Source: Branchiostoma floridae (Eukaryota; Chordata; Leptocardii; Amphioxiformes; Branchiostomatidae). Taken from it: DNA of 64,000 nt. The DNA lies in contig NC_049991.1 of NCBI RefSeq assembly GCF_000003815.2, positions 9,490,561-9,554,560 on the forward strand, in the 5' to 3' direction. The position numbers and the translations under genes are program-made. Of this stretch, positions 327 to 63,751 are shown piece by piece. Under the pieces are notes generated by a model, which did not search any database, was not told the origin of the DNA, and worked only from the letters and a program-made list of their open reading frames with translations. Positions within the stretch are counted from its first letter, which is position 1; every line of letters starts with the position of its first letter.

Positions 327-593
327 CTTTCGTCCTGTGTTTGAATGTTTCTCCAGGCGGACTCTGCCCTCCCTTGCCCTTTGCGGTCACTGAAAATTCG
401 TAAACTGTTCCCGGCTGCAGTCCCTTGATCAGACGCTCGGGGGCGTTAGCACCCTTGTCCGTCCGGTGTGCCTCGCCGCCCCGGGGCGACGTGTCTACCG
501 TGTAGTTATCCGCCCCGGGTACGGCAGGCCACTGAAGGGTAACGGTCGTTCCCGTAGTGGAGGTGGCTGTGACTCCCGACGGGGGAGGAAACG
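327..593 (-). CDS. Exon 72: FN3-43, last exon seen
   Basis: LQWPAVPGADNYTVDTSPRG and KGLQPGTVYEFSVTAKG. The donor is GC rather than GT (AAAG|GCAAGT), a canonical GC-AG type; phase 1 is kept. The gene therefore continues beyond the left edge. Confidence 0.9.
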
Positions 594-3500
594 CTAAAGG
601 AGTTGGTGAAGGGTTAGAAGGAGACGCGACAGAAAGAGCATGGGAGAAGAGACATGGCGACAACGTCAAAGAAAAGTGAAGCGAAAGGTTGGAGGAGAAA
701 TCATAGAGTTGGCAGCGTTCATGATGCGAAAGGTTGAGAATGAGACACACATGTACATAACAGTGGAAGAGTTGGATGTGTAATGGCTGTCTGTAGACAC
801 AGGACTTCACAGTGCCAAATCATAAGGCAGAGGATGGAAGAAGAGTACAACTGGCAAATGAACAAAAGTTGTGTAGATGGCAGACAGTTGGAGAAATAGA
901 GAAACACATGAGATAGTTTACCCACCTTACATGGCTACCTGGCCTGCCTGTCAAATGTGGGTTTTGAAATGCTGACTAGTACGAACTCTTCTACATTCAC
1001 TTAGCTATTTGGATTGACAAGAGATTACGATTAACTTTAGCAGGAACACGCTTACTGTTTACTTTGGTCTACTCTACAGACATATGATGGAAGAATGTCG
1101 TGTGTTTTCGTGTGTCTGTGAGAGAGCATGTCGCCATGCGACTCTTAGCGATGTGACTGTTACGGACATATGTCATACCGGTAAATTATGATACTCATCA
1201 ACATACAACAAGTGCGTACAACCCACAGCAACTTTTATTTCCTTGACTCATAACAGCAAGTTGGACAGGTGGAACTCTTAATGAAGATAATTCATTTCAT
1301 TATTAGGTCTGCTCGGACAGTTGATTTGAGGAGGTTCAGATCCGCAGTTTAATCTCTTTACCTACATGTAGGCCACACAAAGCTCGGTCTGGTTGTCTCA
1401 CCAAACAGTACTGGTCCCATATTGGAAACTCCACACTGAGGTAGGAGGAACCTGCCTGATTCTGAAATGCGTTCTCAATGATTGCCAAAATTATTTCTCC
1501 TAGCAGCAATAGAAAGTTGACAACTACCGCGCCTATTTTTTGCAAATTGATTGACACAACAATGTTCCAAAGTACCAAGTCGAGGCAACTTGATTGGTGT
1601 AGGTGTCTGCACTCACGTGACTTTGACGTAATCAACCAAACAAAATGGCGGACCCAAGAAAACACATGCGAAGCCATTACTTGAAAAAGTGTCCTGAAAG
1701 TTGATTTCGTTTACTTAAACATGCCTGGTGTACATTTCATGTTATAGTACATTACATTTTTGTACCGCCATGTTGGTAAGTTGGTTAATCATATCCATAA
1801 GCTGTGACGTCATGTGTAAACACACTACAAGTACAACGACAGTTGTTTAAGGTTGTCAACTTTCCAATTTTTGGTTCTCTGCTACATACTCTCAAACCAA
1901 CTGTCCTTGCAATTCGCTGTCGCTGTTTTCAGTATTAAAATACAGATTGCCATATAAAGGTTTAAATCTATAGTCGCCTTAAGTAGATATAGCTGCTTTG
2001 TTTTCAACTGATCACGAATCATCCAAGCAAAAGAACGTAAGTACATAACTCACCCATGTCCACCAAAAGTCGAATTAAGCAAACAATGCTTACAAATTGA
2101 CCTTACTAATACGAGGCTTCTGGGAGAGCAGCATGGTACTTCTATCAGCGTCTAGTTCTTCTTATAGCAGCCAACTTACACCACAAACCAAGAATTGTCA
2201 TGCATCTAATTCTTTTGCAAAACACTAACTCTACACAAATCAACCTTAGCGAACATTACACAAGTAAGACTTAAAGTATTGAAACAAACTATAACAGAAA
2301 CACCAAAGACTACAGCAGTCATCACTTAGTCGTGACTCTATCACTACATATTGTCTGAAGTTAGATATGAGTATCTGGAAGAGTGTCTTCCGATTTTTTG
2401 CCATGAGTTAAGATGACGTTTTCTTTGACAATACTTCTCAGTGTTCGTATGAAGTATGCAGTGATCAACAATACACAAAATAACAATGTCACACCTCGCT
2501 TAACCGTACATAACAGATTCTCAACAATGTCTACTACTATGCTGACTACAAGGGCACTTCGCTTCATAAAGTATGAGAAACAAAAACAATATTGATGGTA
2601 AACGATGAATTAGTGAAATGTTAACTCCAAAACATTAAACGACTAGAAACAAAACACCTTTAGTAATTTGCAAAGCCAGATTGTCGCAAATCTCCTATTT
2701 TCTACTGTTTAAGTAGTTTCTGTTAACGATTGGTTAGTATAGTGATGAAGTAAAGATGCAGCGAGAGCAAATTCTTTGTAAGAATAGCACGTAACGTTAC
2801 ATTTGCCATTTGTTCCCTCAACATATACAGGAAGGCCTCCGATATGGACAACTTTCACCCTCCAATAGCTTACAGGTAACACCTAGTGCGGTCACATTTG
2901 GGACGTCCTACAATTTTTTGGGTGGGGGGTGGGGAGGAGGTTACTGATTGTCGTAGATACTGTTCAAGTCTACATTAAAGATTCCTGAAAAGGTCACTCG
3001 TTTGCCTAGACCGTACTCTATTTTCCATCTTGAGCCATAAAAACTTTTCCATATACTTCTCTGTGAAAGTATAGAGTACAAAATATTCAAGAGAAAGGCG
3101 CCCTTTTAATTTACACTATGCGAGCTGTTGTCGTGAGCGGAAAGTTTGGTAGAGATTTTTCTTTGCACCCCATTCTATTGCGTCCCATCCCATTCCTTAT
3201 AATATAGTTCCCATGCCATCAATAAAAGAATAGATCTTTTATTCTACTACAGCTCACATGCCCCTTGTCACTTTTAGTTGTGCAACATTAAAGCATTCGC
3301 CTCTCCCTCTCAATTTATTTGAAGTATTTTGACAGGCTAAACGTCTCTTTCCTAACGTGTACATCTAGGTCAGATCATCTTTGATTCTTATTCCTGCAAC
3401 TCGAGTAGGTTATCTCTATTGCCACCCAAAGCGCCAAGGCTTCTTGTAGAAGGAGTTCTTCTTCCTCCTGCGCCACTTCTTCTTGATGGTTGCCCGCCTC

Positions 3501-6500
3501 CTCCGCGCCAGGCCTTTGCGTTTGCTCTCCCGGGCAGCCTTCCTCCTCTCCCGCCGGCGCTGGCGATCCTTCTCGGTGTTCCTCCTTCTCTTCCTCTTCC
3601 TCCGGCCGGTTCCTAACAAAGGATTACCTACGGCTCTAACACACCCTTTAAACTGGCTGTAACAAGTATCAAGGATGGTAGCACCCACGCCATCAAAAAG
3701 CGATTCATTCAACACGTATTTCTAATTATTTGATGTATGGTGGGTAAAAAAATGGTCGGAGGTGATATCATTGTACCTTCTTCAGAACGCTTCTGAACGC
3801 TGCCAACATCGTTTTTAACAATCTGTAGTTTACAACTCCTATACGTTATAATAGTCCCCATTAGGAATATATGCCGCGCGTTAAAGTGTTCTCGAAAAAG
3901 TACAAACAAAGAAGTCAATCCCCACAAAACTGACACAAAAAATGAGTAGCTTACTGATAATACCGACGAGAAATACATTATCAAAGGAAATATTTTCAAC
4001 GAAAGCAGCAACAAAATCACTGAGCCTACCGTAGGTCCTCCTCTTGATGCTCTTGGAGACCTCGCTCTTGACGCCCTTCGTGGTGATGGCAATAACGGAG
4101 ATGTCGTACTCCGTGTTGGGCTTCAGATCCTCGATGATTCTCTCCGGCTGAGAGGGGTCGTTACCTCGGCCGGGCGCGAACACGTTCCCGAGCCGCGGCC
4201 TCAGGATCACCTCGTAGTCGCGCGCGTTAGCAACGGGGTTGAAGGACAGCCGCATCCCGGTCTGGGTGATGTTGGTGGTCTTCAGGCCCGTAGGTCCATG
4301 TAAGGCTGAAAACAAAATGACACTCTGGGTTTAAAAATCTGAAACACCGACTTCCACGTCGAGCCTTCGCGAAATTTTGTCTCGTTACAGTGCATATAAT
4401 AAAGAGAACAACAGTGAAACTAGGGAACATTTTTAGCCGCCTATTGCTATATCTTGACCTGGATTCCAGATCAGCATCCCGTCAACAGTTGCCGCCACCG
4501 ACTATATGTCGAATATACAACCTGCAGTCAAATTGTAGGTGTTCCTCATTAATTATGTTAACGTTATATAGTACGTTCTAGTCGTACACATACAAGTTTT
4601 TACCATTTCACCGATAACCACTCACCTTCTGTAGTCACCTCAATAGGGTCGCTACGGCAACTGTTTCCCCTGGGACTCTCCGCCACAATGGTGATGGTGT
4701 ACTCTTTATTAGACTTGAGCCGGCTGATGTGCCTCTCGGGGGCCTTGTCACCCCTCGGCCCAGCAATAATAGTCGCTCCCGGAGGGTCCATCCACACGGT
4801 GTAGTCGTACGCACCGGGCACCTCGTCCCACGTCAGGCTCATGCCTTCTTCAGTGATGTCAGTCACCTTGATATTAGTTGGCGACGATAGTGCTACAGAA
4901 AGAAAATATCATTATCTATCTTATCTAAAGACAACTTCGTAGTATCTGTGAATTATATACAGAACTACACATGTTACATTCAGTCTGGTGGAGACACGCA
5001 TGTACGACATTCAATGGAACAACTAAAATCCAATTATGCCAAAACATAGTATCTACATTGGGCGGCACAAAACTGATATCTTGGCAAATTCACTGGCAAC
5101 TTGATTGAATTAAAATGGAGTCCCCCCCCCCCCACACACACACCAAAAAAATCTATCAATTTTAACACATTGATAAAATGTTTAAACCAATCACTGGATG
5201 TATGATACTGTAAAGCATTTTCATGTAAAATTCTTTACAGTTAATGCAGTATGCATTATGATCCATGCGATGATAGTAATAGTAATGGTAATAGTTTATT
5301 TGTAGATACAAGGCAGCCGGCGGCAGAACTGGGCATTACAAACATTCTTAATAAAAAACGTAATACAACTTACGTGACTGAGGTACTTAACACTTAGCTT
5401 ATGGACAATTAGAACTGAGAAGCCCTCTCAGAAAGCTCTTACCCATGGTAGTGAAGGAGAAAGGTTTGTTGACAGAGCCCTCTCCGCTGGCGCTCTTGGG
5501 TATGATGATGACGCTGTACTCCTTGTTGGGAGACAGCCCGGTCACCTGTCGCTCCGGGCTCTGAGAACCGTTCGTCTGACGTATTCTCCCCTCGGACGGG
5601 TCAAGTTTGACGTCGTACGACGTCGCTCCGTTCACAGGTGACCAGCGGATGAGTGCTTTGGTGTCGGTGCATTCAGATAGTCGGATGCTCGAGACAGCAC
5701 CGAATGCTATGGGATACCAAAGATATCACATTAATGTACAAACTATATACTTTAAACACAAGTAATCTGTACTGCGTAGCTGTAAGCTTAGATATTAAAT
5801 GCCCTTAAAAATGCCATGTTCCAGCGTATGATCTGGTGGACTTATTTTCCAAAACAATTCATCCTTTGAACACAATCATATTTTCACTACCAAGAGTGAC
5901 ATTACAACCGTGGTATCAAACAGCTAGGTCCACATTTGGTCGGTCAAAAAAAAAGCTTAAAGTCGTTAAGGTGGCTATTTACTCGTGAAAAATCTTACGA
6001 GGCAGGCTCGGCGATGACTAATTTTACGTACGATTTACAGGGTATGCTATCGTAGGTACATCGTGTGATGTATGTGACCGGGACATATTTCTATACATTT
6101 AGTATGTACCTTTGGTTTTAATCTTGAGTGGTTTAGATGCCAGCCCGTCCCCTCTGGAGCTCCTGCCGGTGATGATAATCTCGTACTCCGTGGCGGGCCT
6201 CAGACCGGTGATCTCTCTCTCCGGAGCACCGGGAAGCTTAGGCGTGACGGCGGTTCCACCGGAAGGTCTGGTCTCTACGTCATATCCGGTAGCACCCTGG
6301 ACTCGGTTCCAGGCCACTGTCACTGACGTGTCAGAGGCGGACACGCAGCGCATACTCTCAGGTCTTGCCAACGCTGTAAATAGATAAATATTCAGTCAGC
6401 AACTTTAACATCACAGACGGAATACCAAATTTTAAGTATTTTTACAATATAGACGGAATACCAACTTTCTTTGTGTAACAGTGACAATACCGTACAATAC

Positions 6501-9500
6501 TGCAAAGCTAAAGCCAACAAAATAACCCAGCTTGAATAACTACTACCAGGGTCAAGAAAAAGGCATTAAGAAATAATACAAGGGCACACTTCTTTTCCAT
6601 CAGAGTTATCCCGTGGTGGAACAATCTTCCAGAATCTGTGGTGACATATTCAAGCGTAAACTGTTTTATGGAGAGACTGTATAACCAGATGCGTTGTATA
6701 CACATCATACAGTGTGTATTGCAACTACAGAGCTCTGGATAACCCCAATTACCAGGTAAGGCAGTGTCCTGAAAATTAATGAGCGGCCTTAATTGGAACC
6801 GGACGTTCTTACCTGTGCCATAAGAACTCTACTCTACTCTACTCTACTCTACTCAGACACAATAAGACACAAGTGTAGAGATGGCTCTATAAAAGCAAAC
6901 AGCATATCACCATTGAACGCTCTGATAGTACCTTTGGTAAAGCTTCTAGTAATGGCAGATGAGCCGACGAGCTCGCCTTTCTTCGCGGCAACGGCGATCC
7001 TATACTCGACTCCCGGCTTTAAACCTGAGACCTTCCGGGTAGTCGAGCCGGCCTCCTTAACCTTGCCTTCAGGGGTGATGTGGAATTCGTAGTCTGTAGC
7101 TCCTATGACATGTGACCACGTAACGGTCATGTCGTTCTCAGAGTCAGCCTTGGCGACCAGGTTCTCAGGCTCGGTTATCACTGAAACAAAGAAACAGAAT
7201 GTGTAGGTCCTACATTCGTAACTCAACGTTTATTCCTGTAGTCACGTTAAATTCTAAATTATAAAGAACACCGAAAAACATCAACATCATACGTAATCGA
7301 GACGAAAATTAACTTGACATGTGTGGAGGGTTGTAAAATGTCATTTTAAGGACATATAGAACACCTGCTGACATACCCTTTGTTCCGATGGTGAAGTATT
7401 TAGACGGCGCGCTCACACCCTTGGGTCCCTGCGCCGTGACTGTAACCTGGTACTCTGTAGCCGGTAGCAGGTCGGTGATCTCCACCTCTACACGGTCATA
7501 GTCCATCCTGGTCACTCTGGACACGCCCTCCTTGGAGTCAGTACCCACGATGTAGCTAGTGGCGCCGTAGACGGCGTCAAAACCAAACAGTACTTTGTTG
7601 TCCAGGCATCGGATGGCGCGGAATTCAGAGGGCGACGGGAGAGCTGTAAATCAAAGTAAGAAGACTGCTATGTAAGCAAAATGGTACCTCTAGATTTCTT
7701 TTTGCTCTGTTCCATGCATCATACACTTTTTTTATAGAAAGCCGTCGAGGTTTGTAATGTGCATAATATAGGTTTGTCAGGAAGATTTTCCTCAAAGCTC
7801 TACGTGATCTGGCATTGGGCTTCAGAGGTGCAATGTTGCAACGTGCAATAGCTTTCTTGAAGGTGGGTTGGTAGGATCGAACATCAACTTTTATTGTGTT
7901 CCGGGTGGGGGATGTAACGAAATTTCTTAGTCCCAAATTACATAGTTTAACACTTGGACAATCTACTGATAACGAGTTTTAATCACCTTTAGTCGTGACC
8001 GTGACCGATTCACTTTCCTTTGTTCTCTCCTTGTTGGCTTTCTTGGCCGCGACGGTGATCTTGTAAGTTTTGCAGGGCTTCAGTCCCCTGATCTTCCGCA
8101 TGGGGGCGACGGGACCGTAGTCAGTCAGGAACACTTCGGCGTCACCACAAGGTTCGAAGCTGACGTCATAATCCTCTGCGCCAACCACCGGGTCCCAGTT
8201 CAACATAAGAGTGCGGTCTTGTACAAGGGAAGTCCTCACAGAGGTAGGGTAGTGTGCAACTGATGGTGAGGGCAAAACATAAACCTTAAATTTGTAGTAT
8301 TTCTTATGACTGGATGAATTTCTTTATGCAACCCATAGAAAATAGTCATACAAACATAAGAACACAAACTATACACACAACGATTTAGAAACATCTCTAA
8401 GAAAAGAATTTCTAAGATAACAATAAATTCTGCCTACATGTATATCCTTACTTTTCAGGAGCTCGGAGCTGTGTGTATTGACAATAGTATTATGTCACAC
8501 ATGATGTAAGGTTGCTAAGCTACCAGATGTGCCGAAAAACATGTTACAATGCCTACAGATGGTATCTCGCTGCACTTGGGGCATCGGTGCAGCACTGCGG
8601 GGTTCGTTCACTGCGGCAGTGTTGTGTCATTTTCGCCGACTTTTTATAATTTAGATATTGTGTAATACGTAAAAGTATGACTTAGAAGACAAAAACGTAA
8701 GAAAATTCGTTCTTTATCTCACAGCTATTTACAAATGATTTGGGTTGCTAGGTGGTTGCAAAGCGTTTGCTATGTACAGTATATGTCTGGGTTAACTGTG
8801 ACAGGAAAGGTGAACTTAATAGTAGATTGATGCGGGCTGATCTCAATCCATTGTGTTTAATACAAAAAACGATGGGTATACCGTTGTGCCGTGACCTACC
8901 TGCCATGGCTGCGTATGCTGAAGCATCGATGGTGACCACGGGCGCAGGTCGGACTGCTGGAAGAGACAGCAGCGTTAATTGGGCTACAATATGTTACCAT
9001 GACGACTCGAATCCAGGGCTTCGCTATGTTCCATAAGACACAGACATACAGTGACGTACTGCGTGCAGTGAAACAGATCGGTATGGTTTCAAGGCTGGGG
9101 TCCAGGGGTCCCACGGTTTGGAACAACTTGAATAAGTCGACATCAAAACTGACTCCCTTTTTGCTACATTCAAGAGTCACACTATAGATTACCCTACATT
9201 TTCCTAACTTGGCTTACACGCCCTTGTTAATACTGGAACCCTACAATTTTTGCTTATATCCATACATTATCACATAAGACATGATTAATCATGTACTGTA
9301 TTTTTCATTATATTGTTTTCTGATACAAACAAATAGATAACGTTAGCATTTAACCTTCGATGGACTGCTGCTCCATAGCTGCCTGTCGCGCTTCGGCAAA
9401 GGCCGAGATTCCTGTTGAGATCTCTTCCTCCTCTTCCTCTTCCACAAGCTCTTCTGAAAACAAGAGTAGACATCAATCAAAATCTTACAATATATGAGAA

Positions 9501-12500
9501 AGAGAATGTTCCAAAACTTCAGGTGCTCCATGCTTCCCGTACATTCCGTGCTTCAGAAAAATCCTGCAATGAAATGCCAGATGAGTGATGGCACGTGACT
9601 GTGCACGAGGTGGTTAGTACGATGAACCTTTAGTAAGCAGTGCCTTCTCTGTCGCCCCAAAGATCACCAAAGGATAACACATCGCACAGAAGCACAATGT
9701 ATATATCGCCTCTTTAGTTAGTAACAAATACCTAGAGGAGGTTCGACAACTAGCTTTTCCGCCTCCGCTTTCTGTTCTTCTTCACGCTCCTTTTCTTCCT
9801 TTTCAACCAGAAGAACTTTCTTTTCTGCGGTCGGAGCTTTCTTTTCTGCCGGAGGAGCGGCAGTTTTCCCAGGAACAGAGGGCTTCTTTTCTTCAGGAGG
9901 AGCTTTCTTTGCTTTGGTTCAAAGACAAACAGACACAAAGCTTTACACATATACGTGGATAAAACAGAAACACAAATATTCACATAAAAAGGAAAAAAGA
10001 AACATTCAGTTCGTTAAAATAAGGTCAGTACCAAGAGGAGGTTTGGCTTTCTCTTCAGCCTCTTTCTTTTTCTTTTCGGCCTCTTCTTGTTGTCTTTGTT
10101 TCCATGCAGGAACTTTCTTTTCTGTTGAGGATACAATAAATGACTTGAATCCTTTTCCCCATTCCAATAGTAGCTCGGGGTATAATCATTCAATAGGGAG
10201 AAAGGGAAATATGATAGATTTAATATGCATATGTAACATGGTCACTACCAGGTGCTTTGGCTTTTTCTTCAGCCTCCCTCTTTTTCTTTTCCTCCTCTTC
10301 TTGTTGTCTTTGCTTCCAGGTGGGAACTTTCTTTTCTGCTAAAAGTACAGAAAATAAGATAAGGTCTTCGACTGTAATTCGCCATAGCTATGGAAATATG
10401 AAAACATAAGAGTTGTGGATATGAAAACAAGCAATATATTTTATCTCATGTTACAAGGTTTCTACCAGGAGGGGCTTTGGCTTTTTCTTCTTCTTCCTTC
10501 TTTCTCCTTTCCTCCTCCTCTTGTCTTTTTTTCATCCAGGCAGGAACTTTCTTTTCTCCTGATAGGAAATAAACATAGACATAGTACAAAGCCAAAACAG
10601 AAACATTGAACCATTGACACTTCTACCGGACTATGTTGACGAGAGACAATTATGTGACGTGAACTTAAACACACATTGACCGAGACACACACCAGCCCGT
10701 GCTTTGGCTTTTTCTTCCTCCTCTTTCCTCCGTTGTTCTTCCTCCTGTCTGCGCTTTAACCAGGCGGGAACTTTCTTTACTTTCTCCTCTGTTTTACACA
10801 CACGACAACGACACATGGACAAGTACAGTGTTAGTTCAGTTTACTCTGACAAACGAGAACGAGGTCATCTGACATAGTTTATGAATAGAGAGTGCCATTA
10901 GGGAATTCTTCAATCAACACTGCATCTCTCTTCTATCCAACCATATATCAACATCCTGTGTTAGTAATATAAACCTTACCGGGAGCAGCTGCAGCGGCTT
11001 CTCCATCTTTCTTCTTCTTTTCGAGGAGCTGTTTCTTTTTCTGATCTTCTTCTTCTTTCTTCTTTTTCTCGAGGAGCTCTTTCTGCTTTTGTTCTTCTTC
11101 CTTCTTCTTTTTCTCGAGAAGTTCTTTCTTCTTACGTTCTTCTTCTTTCTGCTTTTCCAGTTCTTTTCTTTTCTTCTCGTCTTCTAGCCTTTTCTTATCG
11201 AGTTCCTTTCGTTTTTTCTCCTCTTCTTCCTTCTTTTGTTTTTCAAGAAGTTCCTTTTGTTTTCGCTCCTCCTCCTCTTTGCGTTTCTTTTCGAGGAGAG
11301 CTTTTTGTTTGCGATCTTCTTCCTCTTTGCGCTGCTTTTCCAGCTGTTTCTTCTGTTCCTCCTCCTTTCTCTGTTTTTCTTGAAGTTCCTTTTGTTTTTT
11401 CTCTTCTTCAAGCTTGCACTGTTTCTCGAGGAGTTCTTTTTGTTTCGTGTCTTCGTCTTCTCTTCGTTGTTTCTCGAGGAGTTCTTTCTTTTTCCGGGCC
11501 TCCTCCTCGTCTTGGCGTTGTTTATCGAGAAGCTCCTGTTTTCTTTGTTCTTCTGCTATTCTCTCCTTCTCAGCAAGTTCCTTGCGCTTCTTGTCTTCTT
11601 CTTCTTGGCGCTGTTTGTCGAGAAGTTCCTGTTGTCTTCTTTTTTCTTCTTCTTCTCTTCTTTGCTTTTCGAGAAGCTCCTTTTCCTCTTTTTCTCTTCG
11701 TTGTTTGTCAAGAAGTTCTTGTTGCTTTCTTTGTTCTTCGTCCTTCCGTTGCTTGTCGAGAAGGGCCTGTTGTTTCTGTTCCTCCTCTTTCTGCTGTTTC
11801 AGGAGTTCCTGTTGTTTTCGTTCTTCCTCCTCTTTCTGCTGCTTTTGCCTGAGTTCTTCAGCTTCCCGTCTTTTTCTTTCTTCGTCATCTGCGGAGGGTA
11901 TACAGAAAATGTGATGACGAAGAAAGACGTAAAGACGACATCTGGATAAAAAACGTCAGAAATGACAAACAGAAATAGACAGGTAGAATTCGTACAATTC
12001 ACTATATGCCTAAACCCCTAAGGCCGTAAGAGATATTAATGTTCTACGAACTCAATACTTCGCAAACGCATGTGTTTAATTGAAGAGCATGTAATCTTAC
12101 GTATATACGCATGGCCCTTCGGCTTCTTTTCCGCTGATGGCCAGAATATAGTATCTGACATTATGCATTACATCAAAAGTCGTGCATCTCTACCTTTGGT
12201 TTTGATCACAACTGGTGGAGAGGTGGCACTGGTTCCCTTGACTCCCTCTGCGGCGATGGACACTGTGTACTCCGTGTTCGGCTTCAGGTCGGTCAGCCGT
12301 CTCTCGGCGCCGGCCGCCCCGCCGCTGCTCTCGACGACCCTGCCGTGGGCCGGAGACACCGACACGCTGTAGTTGGTGGCGCCGGGGACGGGCTTCCAGG
12401 CGATGGTGGCGCCAGTTTCCGTCAGCGACGACGGCTTGATGCCACTGGGTGCGGATAGGGCTGCAAAGAGAGGTTGTTGTGATTATTCTGCAGGGGGTTA

Positions 12501-12821
12501 AAACTGTGAAACGATTCCCTCTCCAGTGTTAATCATGTTCTCTATATAAGTTCTATTCACAAACATTAATTTTGAAAACTTACAATTTCGTGATCTTGTT
12601 TCACCGGTTGTTGAGCTTATCATACAATTCCTCATGTGCAAGATTGCACGAGGAATTAAAGGAAGAGGTTATGAAAATTTCAACATTAAACTTTTGGCTG
12701 CACTTCACACCTACAATTTATATATACTGGGAGAAACAAAAAATGTCGGTATTTCTGGAAGCTATGGACATATATCCGAGTAATGAGAAAAATCTTGCTT
12801 TCAAATTTATGTCTGGTCGGG

Positions 12822-12876
<55 letters not shown>

Positions 12877-15800
12877 TTGGTTTTGAAAGCAAGATGTGAG
12901 TGATAAGTTGGATCTCGGTTACAACTCCTGTGAAAAAAATACATATCAAGTCTACGTATCCGGTACCCAGGTGAGCACTATTTCAAGAATGAATATGTTA
13001 GCAAAACACCATCTTGGTTACACCTAAGAAGCACTCGTCACACGTGGGGCTCCTTCACCATGTTTACCTTTCGTGATCTGATGGAATGTTTTGCTGGGGG
13101 CACCTCTGGTTCCGTCAGGTCCAATGGCAGTTACACTGTAATGATACTTCTTGCTCGGTTTTAGACCGTCTATCTGGTACTCTACGTTCGTCGTCTTTCC
13201 TGTGAGAAGTTCTATTCCTTCTGTCTGAACGGCGACTTCGTATCGGTTAGCGCCGGGGACAGGCGCCCAGCCCAGCGACATGCCGGACTCTGACACATGG
13301 TTCACCCTCACATCACCAGGAGCTGGGAGCGCTACACACAGGGGACAGGGACAAAGCAAAAGCTGGGATGGGGTTCGTTTTGATTTTTCAAGCTATGTCG
13401 CTAAAGCTAAGGGCACAACCCGCCGCAGCGTACCGTTAAATACGTGCTAATTACGTGCCAAAACGTGGGCAATCTTTTGGGATCGGTAAGTGGTAGGTAC
13501 GAACTCGTAGGGAATTCGACGGAGCACGCAGACACGCCATAAAACATTACGAGCAGGCAAAACTTTGTGTGCCATCGGGTTGCGGATTCGCCCCCCGTAC
13601 GTGCCAGTACGGACGACCAGCCTGCCCTGAACAGCCTGAACGTTTTCAGAAATACGTGGCGGACGTAGTCTTCAAAAAAACGTAGGGAAAAATTGCACGT
13701 ACGGCGGGTTGTGCCCTTAGCTTAACACATACGTCTTGGTACTGACAGATTCGATGATGTGAAAACTATGCGGTAGGAGCTCACATTCAACAGGGATTTG
13801 AGCAACAGCATCTTTTAATTCTCTAAATACCTTTAGCGGCTTCTTTTGGTTTAGCGACAACGGCCTCGGGTTTCGCGGCATCGCCCTCCGGTATGGCGTC
13901 CCGGGGTTGTTCTTTCTTGCCTTTTGGAACCGCGCCGGGTCCGGGGACCGCGACAGCTTTGAACACATTGAGCACAGACAGGAAAAGAAACATAGAACGA
14001 AAAGTCACACATAAGTAAATCAACGTAACACAACACAACACAACAAACACGGATAAAGAAACACAAAGAAACACGCAGAAAGGCACACAAAAAGTTGCAA
14101 AACAAAGTAACAGAAACGAGCTATATCGCGATAGCAATAGTCAAAACTGCAAAACATACGATTCGGATTATTTTCACCGTGTGAACTGGCGTCGGTGCAA
14201 TGCATGTGGTACCGATCATATATTTGACGAAAAGCTGCGTATCAGTTTAATAAGGAAAAGACACTAGCATCCCTTGAAATCGTTCAGATTTGTACACAAA
14301 ATCGTATACCTCCCATCAACTCCTCTACTGCTTCTAATGTTGTCGGCCTTTCTTCCAGTTTTTCTTGGACCGATGGCTTTTCCGCTGGTAAAGGACAAAG
14401 AGAGTCACATTAAGGACAAACTGTAAACAAAACCGTTCAAACTTCCAGGTACACCACCGCTTACGACAAAGAAGTTGCAGATTAGGCACGATGAATGTGA
14501 ACAGGTAACTTGCGTTGATCTAGGCATATGTAGGATGGAAGAAATGAACATAGAAAATGAATGAAAGGTAAGAAAAGAAGATGGTCATGGTTATTGATGG
14601 TTTAGTACAATGTATGTTGTGAAATGATGATGAATGCCTTAATATAAGATATAATATAAACCAAAGGTGAAGAGAATGTAAGATTTAATGATGAAGGTAT
14701 AATTGAAGAAGTGACATGATGATGATGATGATGATGATGATGAACGTAATTACAAATCTGATGAGATTGTAGTGTGATGATGATGATGCATTGCTGGGAC
14801 TCTCCTATGAACGTTGTATATTATGCTAATGGTAAAAACTGTTCAGCATTTAATGAAGTTTGCAGCTGAGTGAAAGCAATGAACACCAGGAGCTTCGTTC
14901 TACATGTGCATGGAAGGATGGCTTCAAAGTCACAGCACGCTAATGCCCCTCTCGTTGACAGGGTCATTTCATGTCAGCCATTTCATTCAGGCAACTTCCG
15001 GACCAAACGAAAAGGCTGACATAGAAATGAAACCCATCCGCAAGGAAAGGAACCATCTCCACCACCGCTATCACCACCACCGGTCCTCTCACCTGGTACG
15101 GCTTGTTTTAGTCGTTGAAGTTCAGTCATCTTTTCATGCAGACCTGGCTTTGGTTCTAACTCTTCTTTTAGTTTGGCTTGAGGGGCTTTAGGTTTGGCAG
15201 AAGGTTCCATCTTGGGTATTTCAGTAAGAGGAGCCGGTTCTTTCTTGACAATAGCTTCTCCTTTTTCTGTTGATGAAGCTTCGTCCTGTGGCTTCTCTGG
15301 TGTTCGTGCCTCTTCTACTTGGGTGGTGGCTACCGCCTGCGGTGGTTTCTCCGTTGGTAGAGTTTCCTGGATTGCTGGGGTGGTGGAAGGAGCCGTCTCT
15401 GCTGGTTTCTTGTGGACTGGAGGCTCCGTCGGTTTTCCCGACGGTTTCCTCTCAGTATCACTGGGCTCTTTTCTCTCCACTTCTTTGCTTGCCACCTCTA
15501 CTTGCTGTTCCTCAGGGGTAATCTTGACTTCCTCGTGAGGGATCTTGGGAGGAACTGCAGCTTCTCTACCTTTCTCGACAGGAGAGGGGACATCTTCCTT
15601 GACAGGGACATCTACCTTGACAGGGACACCTTTGTCTGTTGTGAGATTTGATGGTTCTGGTATCTCTAGATCTTTGATGGCGACCGCACCTCCTGCCTCA
15701 GTGGGCGCCTTCGAAGCAGCCTCCTTCGCTTTTTCTTCGACAACCTTCTCTGTTGGGGTTTCTGATGGCCTCTCTTCAATCGATACTTTCTCGGCCACTT

Positions 15801-18800
15801 CTGTAACCTGTTCAACGTCTTGAGTTGTCTCAGAGGGTGTCTTGACGACAACCACCTCCCTATCTACTTCTACCGGCTCGACTTTACTTGGTACCACCGG
15901 CTTTTGCTCTTCTAGTTCAATGGGTCTCTTGGCCTCTTTTACGTCAGTTGGGGCGACAGCGACTGGTCTGTCTGTTTGAGCATTATATATTGAACACTTG
16001 AGTCAGAGTGAAATTAGCATCACTAAGTCAAAATCTAAATCCAAATCAGGTGTTGGCATACAATAATACAACGTTTGAGAAATGATGTTATGTTTCATCA
16101 TCAGAAATAACGCAAGCAAGGTGTAGCATATAAGTAACCTCATACTATGTTAAGGTTCCACGTATCTACAGTATTGGTTTCTATGTCAGGAAAGCGAGTA
16201 TGGTTAACTAAGGGGCGCTCAGATAGTGCCCTGGTGCATATCCTTGTGCTGACAGTACTTTGACATCGCGAACTTTAAACGCATGACACTCTTTGTCTAC
16301 TTGACTAAGTAGTGCATTGAATATGTACATGTCAAAGTAACAGTAGCACAAGGAATGCTCTTGTAGCTTGTACCTGTTGGGACAGACACAGGCAATGTTG
16401 GCTTTGCTTGTTCATGGCGTTCCTCCTCAACTGTAATTCAATGCAGTTAATACGTTAGAAGATATCTACATGTATACCAAATATCAAACTATTAAAAGCA
16501 AACTTAGATAGCTGACACTGCCTCTATGATGGCTGCGGTTACACAAAGGTAAGTATTGTTTTCACCAGTGTATGCATGTGTAGGTTTCGTTTGCCATTGT
16601 GTACTTTGTGTGCCCTGCGTACTCTAAACGCAAAGCCTGTTAGCTTGTTGTTACAGGCAAAAGCCTCACCAATAGACCAGCATAAGGACAGGCTATGTAG
16701 ATGAGTTTGATGAGGGTTGACGAAAAATAAAATATGAGGCCCCTAAATAGAAGGGGATAGCAGATAAATTAAAAGGAAGTAATGAACCTAGTTCCTATTA
16801 CTTTCACCTAAACCAGAAGATGAACACCAACACATATAGCTGCAAGAATCCATGAAACCACCATGAAAAATCTACCGGCACAGAGCACAGCTTCCCCTCG
16901 GGTTGGGTGGACAGCGACATACCAGTCATCTAATCCAGGCGACCTTAATACCAAGTAGAATAACTGACAAAGGCAACCGAGCTGCAAGCTAAAGGACACG
17001 TCCCGCCACCTCTCTCCCACTGCAGATGAAGCGACGAAGTTGATCAATTTATCACACCTGTCATTTCCTTTTTCAGTTGTGATACAGGTTTGGTAGTCGG
17101 TTTTACCGTCTCATGCAGTCCAGGTTCTGGCAGTTGTCCTACTTCTTGAGGCTTGGTAGTCGATTTTACCTTCGTCAATACTACCACCTCATGGAATTCA
17201 GGGCCTGGAAGTTGTCCTACGTCTTGAGGTTTGGTAGTCGGTTCTATCTTCTGCACCACCACAGTCTCGTGGACTCCATGTTCTGGTAGTTGTCCTACAT
17301 GTTGGGATTTGGTAGTCGATTTTATCTTCTGTACCTCCACCATCTCATGGCGTTCAGGCTCTGGTACCTGAGATTTGTTGGTCGGTTCTATCTTCTGCGC
17401 AAGTGCAGCCTCATTGAGTTCAGGCTCTGGTACCTGAGGTTCGAAAGTCGGTTGTATCTCCTGTACCTCTACCATCTCATGGAGTCCAGGTTCTGGTAGT
17501 TGAGGTTTGGTAGTCGGTTCTATCTTCTGTACCTCTACCATCGCATGGATATGGGGTTCAGGCTCTGGTAGCTGAGGTTCGGAAGTCGATTCTATCTTCT
17601 GCGCCACTACCGTCTCACTGAGTCCAGGTTCTGGTAGTTGATGTCCGGCACCGGTAGTCGGTTCTATCTTCTGTACCTCAACGATCTCATAGAGTTCAGG
17701 CTCTGGTAGCTGAGGTTCGGCAGTAGGATCTATCTTCTGAACCTCTACCGACTCATGGAGTTCAGGTTCTGGTAGTTCCGGTTTGGTAGTCGGTTCTATC
17801 TTCTGTACCTCTATCGTGTCATGGAGTTCCGGTTCTGCTAGTTCAGATTTGGTAGTCGGTTTAATCTTCTGTACCTCTATCGTGTCATGGAGTCCAAGTT
17901 CTGGTAGTTGAGGTTTGGTAGTCGGTTGTATCTTCTGCACCGTCTCCGTCTCATGGAGTCCATGGTTTGTCTTTGGTGCCCCTGGCCCAAATTTGACCGA
18001 CGGGTCGATCTCCTGTTCCACCAGAGTCTCATTGGGTGCCCGTTCTGTTTGTGGTCCTACTAGTTTAGGTTTGAAAGATTGTTCAACCGTTTGCATCATT
18101 ACAGTATCTACTTTTAGTTGTGGTTCTTCCAATTGTAGTTTAGTAGTCGCTTCCATATTCTGTACCAATACTGCATCATGTATCACTGGTTCAGGCTCTG
18201 TTAGTTGAGGTTTGGAAGTATGTTCCATCATCTGTACCTTGACCTTCTCATGGAGTGAAGGTTCTGGTAGTTGAGTTTCTGAAGTCGGTTCTACCTTCTG
18301 CGCCACAACCGTCTCATGTAGTTCAGGGTCTGGTAGTAGAGGTTTGGAAGTTGGTTCTATCTTCTGTACATCTACCGTCTCACTGAGTAAAGGTTCCAGT
18401 AGTTCAAGCTTGGTAGTCGATTCTATCATCTTTACAACTACCGTCTCGCTGAGTCCAGGTTCTGGAGGTTCCGGTTTGCTAGTCGGCTCTATCTTCTGTA
18501 CCACTACCGTCTTACTGAGTCCAGGTTCTGGAAGATCAGGTTTGGCATTCGGTTCTATCTTCTGTACCTCTACCGTCTCACTATGTCCGGGCTCTGATAT
18601 TTCAGGTTTTGGTGTCGACTTTATCTTCTGTACAACAGCTGTCTTACAGAGTCCAGGTTCTGGTAGTTCCGGTCTGGTAGTCGGTTCTATCTTCTGTACC
18701 CCTTCCGTGTCATGGAGTTTATGTTCTGGTAGTTCAGGTTTAAAGGTCGGTTTTATCTTCAGTACCCCTACTGTCTCATGGAGTTCAGGTTCTGGTAGTA

Positions 18801-51800: not shown

Positions 51801-54800
51801 TTGACTAAGCTGCCTTTCTCTATAGTTAAAATTTCATTAACTGAATATTCTCAAAGTACAGCCAACTACAACTAAAACTATTGGAAATGTAAGAGTGAAA
51901 TATATGATGTCAGAACTGTCATTACCACTCACACTGCAACATCATGCATCTACGATCCAAAGGCGTGAGAAATGAAAAACAAAACACAGCGACACGATGT
52001 ACACACAATGCATGCAAACAAACCTTTTGTAGCACGAGTTTAAAAAGAAATAAAAGGCCACAGTGGTCCAGACGAACACTACTTTCTATTATGCAACATC
52101 TTCATGTGCTATTATATTTTCTTAGAAATGCGTGTGTGTTTTACTGGATTTCTACACCTGGGTTGCTTTGTGATTTTTTCCCCATTATTTCAACAGGGTA
52201 ACATGCTACCACACTCCTACTAGTCCTACATACAACACTCAATACGATGCCTTCACTTAATCCATCGAGCAACACACGTCCTTGTTTAAAATATCACTCC
52301 TCTGATGCAAGACGGTTCAACAGTCTCCTCAGCAGCATCCTCAAAACATGTCGTGCAACATGACCTTCAGGTCACTTGACACTGACCTTGAACTTTGACC
52401 TCCTCCTGTATTGTGGCTAATGACACTGGTTGCGAGGCTGGCTTATGTGTATGGACAGAGTTCTTTTCTGTAAAATTAAAGAGGATGGTGACGCGGCAGT
52501 CGAATTATCTAAAAATACGGGCCGTGTACCACTAAACGCAAAGAAAGCCGAAATGAAAAGTTTTTATTTGCAACTATCTATGCGAAGGTCCGTAGGGTAA
52601 TGTGAAGGTATTTAACAATGATTAGGACAAACCGATCAGGTACAGGTTTTGTTCAAATATGGCACGCTAAACAATTTTGGACAGTGGTTCCCAAAAGATA
52701 GTGGTAGGAATAAGCGCGATGTCGAACATGTAGACCATAATACAGGGAACACCACAAGAAAACGACAACGGCGACACAAAAGAACAACGCACCAGCAAAT
52801 ACTACTACGGGAACCTACAACAAGGGAGAAGACGACATGTTAGGAACTCCAGCGACAACCCTAACGCAAAGGGTAAGAGCAACAGAGGGTAGAGAGTCGG
52901 AACGCGGGGAGGGATCAGCCAAGAAACGAGAAGTCACGTCACACCACGGTGACCTACGTTCCAGTTGTGGTACAACCAGCACAGCCGAACACTTTGCCGT
53001 CCCTGCGATGTTAGCCGCCTGCACCTCGTACACGCCGCCGTCATCACAGGTGACGTTCCTGACGTCCAGGGAACAACTGCCGTCCCCCCTAAACGTCAGC
53101 ATCCGATTGCCGCCGTTGCCCACAGGGACGCCATCTTTAAGCCACGTGATTTCAATCCCAGGAGTCCCTGCGACCACGCAGTCGAATCGGGCATCTGCTC
53201 CCTCTGACACCTTGACATCCGTCAGTTTGGCCGCGAATATCGGCGCGATTTTCTCACCTCTCGTTTCCTCTCCACCAATTGCATCTATGTATGAAGCGTG
53301 GTATTATACGACACCTTTACAATATATTTTCGACAAATTTGGAAAAATCAAGTCCTCGACCAACTTGTCTCTCGTGCATTCCCTTTAATCTCCAAGCAGC
53401 AAAAGATAGTATCAAAGCTGGCAAAAGAGCATAGTTGGGCACCAGGTACCGGTGCCCGTCTTACTCCCTTTGGCCGGCTATACTCCTTGGCCAGCTTTGA
53501 TACTATCCTTAAGGCACCGTAGGTTCTGCTTGGAGACTACTTTCCCTTACTGTTATCCACAAACGTTTTTTTCTTTAACTTTAAGCCAATGAAATATCAT
53601 TATATTTATCTTTATTGACACAACAAAAGTACAACGACGTTCGAAAGGTCTGCTACAAATATGTATATGCGAATAAACAAGTGTATACAATTAATTACTT
53701 ACATGAATGTCTACGAATAAGTACGTGTATCAATATATCAGCATGTTGAGTCTGGGGTATCATTTACATTGTTGGTTCTAAGGTCTAAATATTCTTTGAT
53801 ATATTTACCTAGGTTATTGATCACCAAGGAAACGAGCAGTTAAGACGAGAACACTGAAGCAAAAATTGCAGCATTCTCTGGATAGGAGCGAGTTAATAAG
53901 CACAATATGAGGTAGACATAGCTAAGTAGTTAACACTGATATGACTGTAAATGTAACAGCTCTCAGGCTAGAACAATGCCATGAACAATGAACAACGGTT
54001 GTGCAACTTACGTGGTTTGACGGTGAGTTCCGCGGTACTAGTTGCCTGTCCCTTCTTGCTTGTTGCTTGGCAACTGTACGCACCCGAGTCGGCATCGGTG
54101 ACGTTAGTGATGACCAGCGCAAAACTACCGTCATCACCATACTTGGCAAAGTGTTGGTTATCTTCGTCAATCTCTTTCCCATCCTGTATGAAAAGAAAGA
54201 AATATTTACATAAGGCAACTGCATAGGACCACTGAAAGTTGACATGAGCTAAAATGCAAAGATGGCCAACCACCAATCTTTACCGAGAAATTCAGAATGC
54301 GTTCATGTAGTACGCAACAATCAACGGTGACTATGCAATGCCTAGCTACATACTATTCTAAATTAGGAGCATATTCTATTGACATATATTTTATAAAATC
54401 AACATCATGTCGATGCATATGCATTTACACAAAAAGTATTATCGACTGCATCTTCTGTACAATTACATAAGATATCCGTAAGGTTTGAAATTGTTCAACG
54501 CTAGGAACATTTTTCTAGTTTCACTTATTGCACTGATGCCAGTATGAAAGCATTACAAGAAGTACCTTGAGCCATATGATGGTAGGAGGCGGGGATCCAG
54601 AGATTTCGCACTCGAATCTGACGGACTCTCCTCTGGCGACCTGGCAGCTCTCTAGGCCCCTGTTGAACTCCGGTGCCCCTGCCAACTCGTCCTCTTCTCC
54701 CTCCGACATCTCCTCTATTGTAGACACTTCTGATGCCCTTTGGTTTACAAAATGCACCTGCTCAGTTTCCAGCAATGATATTTTAAAACTGAATAAAATC

Positions 54801-57800
54801 CCCACAGCTTCCCTTTAATTTCTTTGCTGAGATCTACGAGGGGCGGTCAATAAGTAATGCCCCTGACCCATTTTCCATAGCAGGAGATTAATGAAACTTG
54901 GCACAGCTATTAGTCTTTCTCTTCAGAGAACCACCCAGAGTTATGCATTTCTCCCATCGTTTGATGCAGCTCTGGACACCGTTTTTGTAGGACACACCAG
55001 GTTGGTCCTCCAACAGATACCTCGTCAATGGCAGAAGAGGGACGACCAGGTCTGGGAGCTATTTCCGCAGACTTCCGCCCATGTTTGAATTCAGGATGCC
55101 AGCGTTTTACAAGGTCATATGATGATCATCACCATAAGTTTCTTTCATTTCATCAAAAATCTTCTTTGGTGTGCGTCCTTTCAAATACAAAAACTGGTTC
55201 CATTTCACACCTGGTCCATTTCGCACCTGACTCAGTTCAAACACCAGTAAATCAAAAAACCACACAATTAGTTCAGAGCTGTTTTTGCAACATAACCTAT
55301 AAAGATATGAATCATTACACAGACAAAATTTCATCTAGATCAGACGACTGGAAGTGGGTCAGGGGCATTACTTATTGAATTTGGAATTTTTTACATCTGG
55401 AATTTTTGAAATTATTTTACAACTATCTGATAAGTGGGGCCATATCCTCTAATGATGTAAAGACTGCACAAAGTCTGCTGGAAGACACACAACAACTCAA
55501 GAATACATCAAATATGACAAATAGTAACGTCCACATAATTAGTAACACACAATAGAACATTATACTACATACATCTGATACCAATGTGGTCATGCGTGCA
55601 CCACGTATGTTGCAGGCATACATACATCTGCGTTTGTTGTTGGTTTAAAGCCAGACCGGCCTGGCCAGCATGTAGACTAGAGAAGGCACCGGGAATCCCA
55701 GACAGCAAGCCCGACATGAATAGCTTCGGCTGAGGAACCTGAACGCTAGGAGATCTGCAAGAAGCAAACACCAGTTGCCTCAGCTGAGTGCTCCATTCGC
55801 AAGAACCGCTGAATCTCAAGCAATGCCACTAACATAGGCTCATGGTTAGTTAACTGCAATTTTGCTTGCCCCGGTCGTCACACAGTTTCGTGTCAGTTAT
55901 ATAGCTTGCAGTGACATGTAAATAACGACATGAAAACGGTCGAATTCAGGACAATGACCGACGTCAAAACTACAGGTGTGTTTCGATCGATTATTTTGTC
56001 AAAAAACAACACACAACAATAATCCTATGAGATTGTGTGAAACTTCTTCGTGGACTATTAAAAACTTTACGAGCATACTACCAGTATTCGTTAAAATACT
56101 AGTATTGTCAAAAGGCTGGATGAAATTTAGGATATGATCAAATTTAGGAAATGATAAATGATAGAGAATACTGTCTCAAATTAAGTTAAATTGACCTAAT
56201 GATAGAGCTAACTGCCTTAGCATCAGCATCACATTCAAGCATAGACATTCTCTTCAGTATCAAAGAACTTCCAAGCGTCACATTAAACTCAACCTACTGT
56301 ACATTTCAAGACAGAAGCGTTAGTAACAGTGAGGAGAACAGTGTACAAGTACAGCGCACAGCGAAATTGGACCTCTTCAAGCCTGGGCCAGAACCAACGG
56401 TCTTACCCTTCCAGGGTGCCGGCTTCTGCTGTAGCGTACGAGCTGATGGACATGACCTCCTCTCCCGTTGCCGTGTGGAATGAACTCACGGAGGCCGAGT
56501 CATCGGTGCCTTGTCTCCGTAACTGACTGGGAGACGTGATCAGATCACCTTGTCGGCGGAGCTGACTCGGAGATGTGACGGTGTCGTCGCCACTTCCCTC
56601 CCGCTTCAATTTCCCACCCTCCGCGCTAACTTGTTTTTTCTTCCCGGTCGGTGGAGAGATCACCTTGGCCTTTCCAGCTGCACCTGAAGGGTGATCAAAT
56701 GCAATACGAAGTTAGTATTCGTGCCTTCATGGGACGACGAGGTCAATTGGATCCCCAATATCACAACAGGTACTTAGATAAATTACGATGATATCCAAAC
56801 AGATCTACCGCCACCGTAAGTCTACCTGGAGATTAGAATTATTGAGTAGTAAGGGAAGGTTCGTCAAGAATGGTTTGTATTCTGGAGCCATTGTTATATG
56901 CAACGACTTTCATTTCCAAGGAACCTAAATAGTTATTTTGATTGCAACGAACAACACTGTACTGGAAATAAGTTTGTTAGAGAGGCCATTGAACTTATCT
57001 ATGATGACTTCCTTCCCAAAAATAAGTTGGCGCTTGGCGCTTATGTTATCGCCTATACGCTATCGCAGATACATCTATACACCTTAAACTGCCTCCAGAT
57101 TCTAGGTGAGTCTTAACTCTTGTGCACACGCAAAAAAAGGAAACTGACAGGCAAATAGCTTTTGTCTGAACCATGCATAAGCAACAGCCCAGCAATGGTA
57201 TCTACAGCTTCTAGAGACAGTCAGCCACACCATATCTATATGCATATTGTCTCACAACTTGGAGTCATGATGCAAACAGCTAGCTCTTGTCAAATTGTCT
57301 ATGGGCTTTTGAACTCATCTTTGCTGAATACAATTAACTATTAGAAAGTTTCAAGCAGCGTAACACTATGTGAGGGCTGACTCCGGCCATTTGACTGCGA
57401 GAAGTAAATCTACATATGGTCATAGTGAACTACCCAGGCTGAGTCCTGTTGGTAACCAACAACTAAAACCAAACTGTGGCAGTGTATAGGTCAGCCAAAA
57501 GCAGCAACAGAGTACTCAGCACCTTCAGCCACAGCACACCACTACAAACACCGTGTATTGTAAGCACCATCCATACCCGCTGTGCTTATTTTCACTGGCT
57601 TAGAAGGATTGCTCTGTCCCTCCGGCCCGATGGCGGTCACGGTGAAGACGTACTCCTGTCCAGGACGGAGGCCGTCCACTGTCCTCTCCCACACGGACGG
57701 TCCTCCCACCGGGTCAACGACCTTACCATCGGGCGGGGTCACCGCAATTCTGTAGTCCGTGGCGCCCGTCACGGGGGTCCACTTTAGGGTCACTGACGTG

Positions 57801-60800
57801 TCGTCTACGTCACTCGGTTTTACTCCCAGAGGACTTGGGAATGCTAGTTTGGAAGAGTACATTCAAGTATTTGCGGACTTGTTTTATAGCTAGACAATCA
57901 CCTAGAAATGATCTTGATGTGCCAGTGAACCCCAACGACACACAAACTGGTTTCTGGAGATGCAGAAACCAGTGATGATGATTACACCGACGAAGGGGAC
58001 AGAGATGTAACAAGGGGACACCACAATATCCGTATGTGTAAGTCGAATATACTTTTACCCTTGCATGCTGTACACCAAGATAGGGCTTAGCGAAAACCTT
58101 TCATTTCCAGCCATGTCTCCCATGATCGTCTACTAATCAGACGGTGTTCTTTAGGACAGAGTGGAGATAGTTGGTACGGCCTACGATTACTGTCTCGCTG
58201 GATATAGATGTACCACTACTGACCTTCCAACTGCAAATTGGACACTTGACGGGCCACTAACGTTGGAAGTGACTAACGCTCGTATTTTATTTGATGGTGT
58301 TTATACACATATGTACTAGAGGCACAAAATTAGCAACGAATACAAAATATTTATGAAAGTATGTAAAAAAAAAATTACAAGGACAAAATGCAATTCCTAC
58401 CTTTAGCTTCTTTATCTGTACCCTCGGCGGCAGGTCTAACCTCCTCTTGGCCGTCCCCTGCAACCCTCGGTGTCACGGCTTCCCCTGCGGCTTTTCCGGC
58501 CGCTTGGTCCACTTCCATTGGAACAGGTTTCTGTTCGTCATCCTTTGATGCTACCTTTTTGGCAGCTGGTATTTCTCCAGCCTTAGCTTCTGCAGGTCTT
58601 TTCTCTCCTGCTTTAACAGCTACAGGGGCTGCTTCATCTGCAGGTTTGACCGCTAGAGGCTTCACGACTGCCGCGTCCTTGGCCACTGGCGCTCCCGTCA
58701 TTGGAGTCACGGGAGCCGCCGCAGCTCCGGCGGGGGAAGGCGCGAGTCCCGGGGAGGCTCCTGGAGTCAGCTTGCCTGGAGTACTCAGACGTCCCGTTGG
58801 AGTCGCAGGGGGAGTCGTATCTACGGAAAAATGAAAACGTTTCTCTTTTGTTTTGTTTTGTTTTAACCATGTAGCTACGCAAGTTGGGGAATCGTCACAT
58901 TTCCAGAAATACGAAAATACATTATGCAGTCTTTGTTATGTATAAAAAATCTGTTGACTGTCATATGCTAACGGTAAGATACGTTAGGATATAGATTATA
59001 ATCAGGCAGATTCGTGAAATTCTGATCGAAGTGTGAGCTGCGATTTAAATATGGGAGAACACCCTAACACGTTCCTAGCACCCTTATCGGAGTTTCTGTC
59101 GACAGAGAAAACGATCAGGGTCTCTGCTGACGGAATCGGCGATATGTATTATACCAGATCGCAATATCAGATCTCTGCCCTGATTATCTATATACAAGAA
59201 TCAGCCTACCTGTCACCATGAGGTGTGCAGCAGAAATGACCCTCCCCACCACGTTTGTAGCCGTGGCGCTGAATTTCCCAGAGTCGTCCTCATAAACCTC
59301 CTCAATGATGAGTCGACTGGTGTCGCCTTCTGTCACGATCCTGAAGTCCTCCGTGCTCTGGAGCTCCGCCCTCTCTCTGTACCACCTGATCTTCGGCATG
59401 GGCGTGCCCCTGAACCTCACCACCATCTCCACACGGGAACCTTCCTTCACCCGCTGACTCTTTAGTCTCTGGACGAAGTCAGGAGGTTCTGGTGAGAGGA
59501 AAAGATTAAAGCAAAAACGGTTAAGTAGATTACAAATGTTTCACATTAAAAAGGAGTCATCTCGGTTGCTTGCAATATTGTTGCTGACAGGACGTGTACA
59601 TCTACAAGTAGTACAAGTTACAGGAAAACAATTCTTCCCTCACGTATACTTATTCTCTTCAGGCTATAGAACATACATAGGTGATAGGGAGGGTCAGCTA
59701 AAGTGGGCTGAGGTTTCAGCTTCTGTTGGCGTGGCCTCAAACCAGCCTTCAGACAATCAGAGAATCGACTTTACCAAAAAAAAAAACAATTAGGCGATTC
59801 TCTGATTGGATAAACGTTGGTCAGACCCACAAAAGTGGAAACCTCAGTTCGGAGCTTGCCGAGGTATACTTATGCGGCTCTGCGTATAAAACGAGTATGT
59901 TATACCATTCTTCCTACTAGATTGAACTGTATGTATCAGAAAGGTTCAAAACACACAAATAAAGAAACTTTACCTCTAACAACAAGCTTGGCAGTGCTGG
60001 AGGCCGAGCCCTCAGCGTTCCTCGCCGTGCAGGCGACATTCCCGCCATCGTCGGTCACTGACGTCAGCACGAGACTTGCGCGCCCGCCCTCTTCTCGCGA
60101 GATTTGAGTTTTGTCTGTGTGAGCCACCTCCTTTCCGTTTAGGTACCATGAGACGTCTGGTTCGGGGTTGCCTGTAATCAGAGTCAGCAGTGAGTGTCAA
60201 TAACTTATCAAATACGTTTTCTTTGTAGATCGATATGCATATTGTATTGTTGCTACTGTATAATGTTCTAAAAATGGTATTGGACAGACAAAAAATTACA
60301 ATGTATACAAGGCTTTTTAAGTGTAGCACAGTGTAGCATACTTGTATTCCGTAAGTTATAATATAGTTCTAATCTGGAAGATTCTTAGTTGTATGAAATG
60401 CCAGATTATTAAACGGGCCTTGCAGCTATTGCATTGAAAGCCATCTGCAGATATGAAGAGGGTCGCAAGGAGTCCTATTGAATTGTGATTCCCATATATA
60501 TACTGCTACCATTTCGCAAAATCCCAGCCCAACGTGTGAATCGAACATTTCATATGTACGAGTATGTGCATATACTACACACATGTATATCTTCCTAAGT
60601 GGGTCGACCTTACCTATCAATACACAAGGTCAGATAGCCGGCTTTGTGTCAGTATCCATGTCGATTAAGTATCTATCCGTTTAGAAACATCCCAATGAAC
60701 CACATACTACAAATTTAAACGCCAGTCCAACAAACTCAGCCACGTTTGATATTGTGTTCTCGCCACAAAGGCGCCACCTACATCGGCTACATATAGCAGC

Positions 60801-63751: not shown

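Follow-up and report, generated by a model that had tools for sequence, protein, structure and literature searches.

In titin, fibronectin type III (FN3) domains are described as occurring only in the A-band (PMC10862085), and the chordates among the 15 species retained in a broader comparison have one long titin with an I-band of immunoglobulin (Ig) domains and PEVK sequence, with mixed I- and A-band features in lophotrochozoan titins (PMC12063666); here and throughout, cited work is represented by the available portion of each text. The connectin gene has been placed on amphioxus chromosome 18, cephalochordate connectin comprising an I-band and an A-band region, and the available text of that study mentions neither a second copy nor an FN3-rich I-band (PMC12198301). 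Titin orthologs were counted as two in B. belcheri and one in B. floridae (PMC5888912, Table 1), and "Titin-like" has served as an amphioxus somite marker in work whose available text does not describe its architecture (PMC11136973). We analyzed a 64,000-nucleotide stretch of contig NC_049991.1 (hereafter the window), whose minus strand seems to carry the gene for a giant muscle protein with a titin-like start and a spring made of an FN3 chain and a giant PEVK exon, not of an Ig chain. Amphioxus connectin, which possibly belongs to the same animal group and has PEVK sequence in common with this locus, was reportedly described by Ohtsuka in 2011 as combining an I-band of Ig and PEVK with a kinase-containing A-band of Ig and FN3.

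The window (45.2% G+C, zero N) yields, in a stop-to-stop listing of open reading frames, a single 2991-residue frame (17044-26019, minus) and numerous frames of about 100 residues. Read from right to left, the minus strand, on which all coding features given below lie, presents Ig and then FN3 domains in order. The gene model was built with a small splice-and-codon dynamic programme, followed by inspection of doubtful borders and hand curation, which reduced 74 exons to 67 by dropping seven micro-exons and moved six borders, three of them in FN3 exons. The curated model is stop-free and encodes 8437 residues; 63 of its 67 exons are phase 1-1, every one of the 66 introns has GT-AG ends (a choice favoured by the splice programme itself), the median intron is 402 nucleotides and non-coding G+C is 40.6%. 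Four further likely exons lie beyond the model (10121-10032, 13956-13831, 9453-9355 and a cut FN3-44), and the gene continues past the left edge of the window. An earlier note on this DNA had described Z1-Z2-like Ig domains at the start and at least 43 FN3 domains in one-domain exons, interrupted by PEVK-like and helical segments, with only four Ig domains. These observations were borne out: the model reads in frame from a titin-type Z-disc N-terminus into a long FN3/PEVK region, Ig domains number only four within the window, and a Pfam fn3 match was obtained for 43 of 43 FN3 exons, which also rules out chance open reading frames.

The predicted architecture is thus titin-like by anatomy, with a titin Z-disc tip, and is unusual for the family. 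Unlike vertebrate titin/connectin, it shows just four Ig domains across the entire window, a run of 32 FN3 domains without interspersed Ig near the N-terminus and one 8.9-kb PEVK exon, and no titin Z-repeats were found in the window. Likewise, a tandem-Ig I-band as in vertebrate and other described chordate titins was not found within the window, so that on three counts, the third being FN3 type, the predicted protein departs from described titins. It resembles Drosophila Sallimus and C. elegans titin, I-band titins that are PEVK-rich and exist apart from an A-band partner, but these are described as typical Ig plus PEVK, and a comparable FN3 run goes unmentioned in the available text (PMC12063666). 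The probable reading here is that a titin-type Z-disc anchor sits at the N-terminus and that a long FN3 chain with an enormous PEVK exon acts as the spring in place of tandem Ig domains.

The FN3 domains fall into several blocks. FN3-2 to FN3-33 occupy exons 11-42 (29482-51714), one domain per exon and all phase 1-1, the borders of exons 19, 20 and 24 being hand-set; FN3-34 and FN3-35 lie in exons 52-53 (12194-13331), FN3-36 to FN3-43 in exons 60-67 (327-8259), and what seems to be the start of FN3-44, weak when taken alone, is cut at the window end (1-62). Each of the 43 domains has 82-91 residues. FN3-1, whose exon (57577-57843; Pfam fn3 E 6.9e-14) stands amid the Ig exons, was predicted with the 43 rows as alignment to fold with a predicted local distance difference test score of 96.7, and FN3 structures were its top matches; the domains are therefore FN3 by both Pfam match and fold. 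Folded, 32 such domains would span an estimated 0.12 μm. Pairwise identity among the 43 averages 0.362 with a maximum of 0.897, and no long-period super-repeat was seen in the array, where mean identity stays at 0.36-0.42 at lags 1-15. The maximum at lag 3 is caused by one local duplication, FN3-18/-19/-20 against FN3-21/-22/-23, with exon DNA identities of 72.7% (FN3-18/-21), 85.5% (FN3-19/-22) and 90.1% (FN3-20/-23); no match was seen for the introns that separate these exons. Two smaller features touch the array. At 44001-44321, a tandem duplication (82% identical) has placed a copy of the FN3-12 exon's 3' end, with its coding scrap TSAPSERIKIKTEG, in the intron that follows. In the 3.4 kb separating FN3-42 from FN3-43, K/E/R-rich frames (3378-3721, minus) without a Pfam match are perhaps an unmodelled charged exon.

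We then asked what type of FN3 domain this is, using the hallmarks given for titin FN3, namely Pro at W+3, a Gly-rich BC loop, Glu in strand C, a basic residue in strand F, a second Trp and NxxG (PMC10862085). These were scored on the 43 window domains, 14 human titin segments and 10 human fibronectin segments, human titin being the only titin compared. Gly-Gly in the BC loop was found in 0 of 43 window domains, 14 of 14 titin segments and 0 of 10 fibronectin segments; the corresponding counts were 2/43, 14/14 and 0/10 for the strand C Glu, 6/43, 14/14 and 0/10 for the strand F basic residue, 4/43, 12/14 and 0/10 for the second Trp, 4/43, 13/14 and 1/10 for NxxG, and 0/43, 14/14 and 6/10 for Pro at W+3. 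The 43 window domains are thus not of titin type, and a fibronectin profile outscored a titin profile for every one of them (means 33.3 vs 11.9 bits, the profile being biased). In the scored marks they are, on sequence, fibronectin-like, which does not imply descent from fibronectin itself; fibronectin and other extracellular FN3 chains share these marks and profile preference but differ in that here the FN3 domains come after a titin N-terminus and lie on either side of PEVK and ER/K segments. Because the titin FN3 hallmarks are mostly absent, an A-band array moved forward was rejected, and the domains would represent a separate FN3 expansion behind the titin Z-disc tip. For the same reason, replacement of tandem Ig by FN3 arrays, as the earlier note suggested, is a better fit than shifted A-band material. 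What is new is the predicted placement of FN3 domains of a non-A-band type behind a titin Z-disc tip.

The remainder of the putative spring is dominated by exon 49 (17058-25982), a giant PEVK exon of 2975 residues, 49% of which are P, E, V or K and 12% T, compared with about 70% P, E, V and K in the titin PEVK segment (PMC12241362). A 22-residue repeat runs over about 6.5 kb of it (autocorrelation 0.37 at 22 and 0.31 at 44, mean 0.09), and Tandem Repeats Finder reported 66-nucleotide-based arrays at 17301-23820. It is flanked by short PEVK-like exons 43-48 (26355-28331; 19-57 residues, exon 45 being doubtful at 30% PEVK), the 293-residue PEVK-like exon 50 (15093-15971) and the short PEVK-like exon 51 (14310-14384), with a probable additional PEVK-like exon beyond the model at 13831-13956. 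Exons 43-51 sum to 3461 residues, an estimated chain of 1.3 μm at 0.38 nm/residue. The PEVK region exceeds 40% PEVK in 250-residue windows, the rule used for such a region in PMC12063666.

Exon 54 (10980-11888; 303 residues) is 78% K, E, R and Q, with a single Gly and a single Pro, both C-terminal. Its i,i+3/4 pairs comprise 256 attractive and 55 repulsive ones, against 147 ± 9 attractive in shuffles, which fits a predicted single ER/K helix of an estimated 45 nm at 0.15 nm/residue; a weak Pfam match to Fibrinogen_BP (32.6 bits, cut-off 50) was taken as charge composition. Next to it, exons 55-57 and a fourth copy beyond the model (10121-10032) carry KKVPAW-RQEEE repeats (10032-10788), a predicted helix of about 30 residues repeated in four exons, for which no PDB match was found at E ≤ 1. 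PEVK-like exon 58 (9732-9911; 60 residues), a possible additional acidic exon beyond the model (9355-9453) and the short, weak exon 59 (8900-8956) complete this part.

Several points weigh against an FN3-PEVK spring on a titin anchor. FN3 chains of such a type are best known as extracellular. The gene appears here as a prediction from DNA, built on hand-written splice matrices and on hand work that dropped 7 of 74 exons and changed 6 borders. Its C-terminus lies beyond the window, as would an A-band part or a kinase, if present. The 40% PEVK rule is unspecific, flagging also the ER/K exon and an N-terminal linker stretch. Phase 1-1 exons join in frame even across two adjoining genes, and seven signal-like ATG exons occur in non-exon sequence, one in the gap that follows exon 6 and one in that following exon 8 (expected 0.3 and 0.1), with none in the two gaps directly before the FN3 array.

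Granting such a spring, the locus could be the sole titin of the organism, its FN3-PEVK part being the I-band and tandem Ig, A-band super-repeats and a kinase following further left, which we consider quite possible, if short of probable. The open left end with its apparent 44th FN3 start, the one long titin of the retained chordates (PMC12063666) and CON (TTN) on amphioxus chromosome 18, with no second copy described in the available text (PMC12198301), speak for it; yet the chordate I-band is described as Ig plus PEVK (PMC12063666), titin Fn3 as confined to the A-band (PMC10862085), and B. belcheri has two titin orthologs, though B. floridae has one (PMC5888912). Also a real possibility, put forward tentatively, is a paralogue: a second titin-like gene equipped with a dedicated spring, lacking A-band and kinase and possibly serving a special muscle, in a role like that of Sallimus beside Projectin. 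An architecture unlike the titins described in the cited texts, an FN3 type different from that of human titin and the B. belcheri count favour the paralogue, but the B. floridae count does not (PMC5888912).

It seems improbable that the FN3 domains, instead of forming a spring, belong to the thick filament (A-band) like those of twitchin or titin: A-band titins are indeed described as Ig-Fn3 super-repeats (PMC12063666), but the 32 domains lack interspersed Ig, a long-period super-repeat and most titin hallmarks, and PEVK and ER/K segments come after them. Neither Ig-FN3 A-band super-repeats nor the kinase-bearing Ig-FN3 super-repeats of twitchin/projectin were found within the window, past whose left end the gene runs on. 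Two adjoining genes, the Ig part and the FN3 array never sharing a transcript, are very unlikely despite the freely joinable phase 1-1 exons, the weak exon 10 between Ig4 and FN3-2 and the signal-like starts after exons 6 and 8, since the tree pairs FN3-1, which lies amid the Ig exons, with FN3-33 (support 98/93, with 24 of 40 inner branches open and the bootstrap unsettled), which argues for one gene.

If the FN3-PEVK spring is real, its union with a titin-type anchor would demonstrate that another domain family can stand in for the folded part of the spring. It would also offer a natural test of the mechanical contribution of tandem Ig domains and, in a chordate, be relevant to the idea of one titin gene per chordate.

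The other N-terminal exons comprise parts upstream of exon 4 (63661-63751, 59974-60171 and 59210-59488), exon 4, a linker rich in TP/SP (58401-58820), and exon 6, a linker with two TSPSQLRRQG-type repeats (56407-56683), both linkers without a Pfam match. The exon 6 linker adjoins the Z-disc tip and is a candidate phosphorylation or binding site. Ig3 is split between exon 7, which also holds an acidic leader (54566-54788; start hand-set), and exon 8 (54012-54183); Ig4 is exon 9 (52958-53284; end hand-set), and exon 10 (52387-52467) is a short linker called on splice and codon score only.

Plus-strand genes were considered and rejected: seven of the nine plus-strand open reading frames of at least 176 residues overlap minus exons by 92-100%, and the other two by 51% (52741-53385) and 43% (9725-10339). 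A fragment in the intron before Ig3 (54913-55334, minus) resembles a mariner helix-turn-helix by eye, and Pfam gave no transposase there. Non-coding palindromes like miniature inverted-repeat transposable element hairpins, with arms 73-93% matched, lie at 42608-42929, 61022-61133, 62296-62405 and 40217-40319, and a perfect (AC)25 microsatellite lies at 12825-12875.
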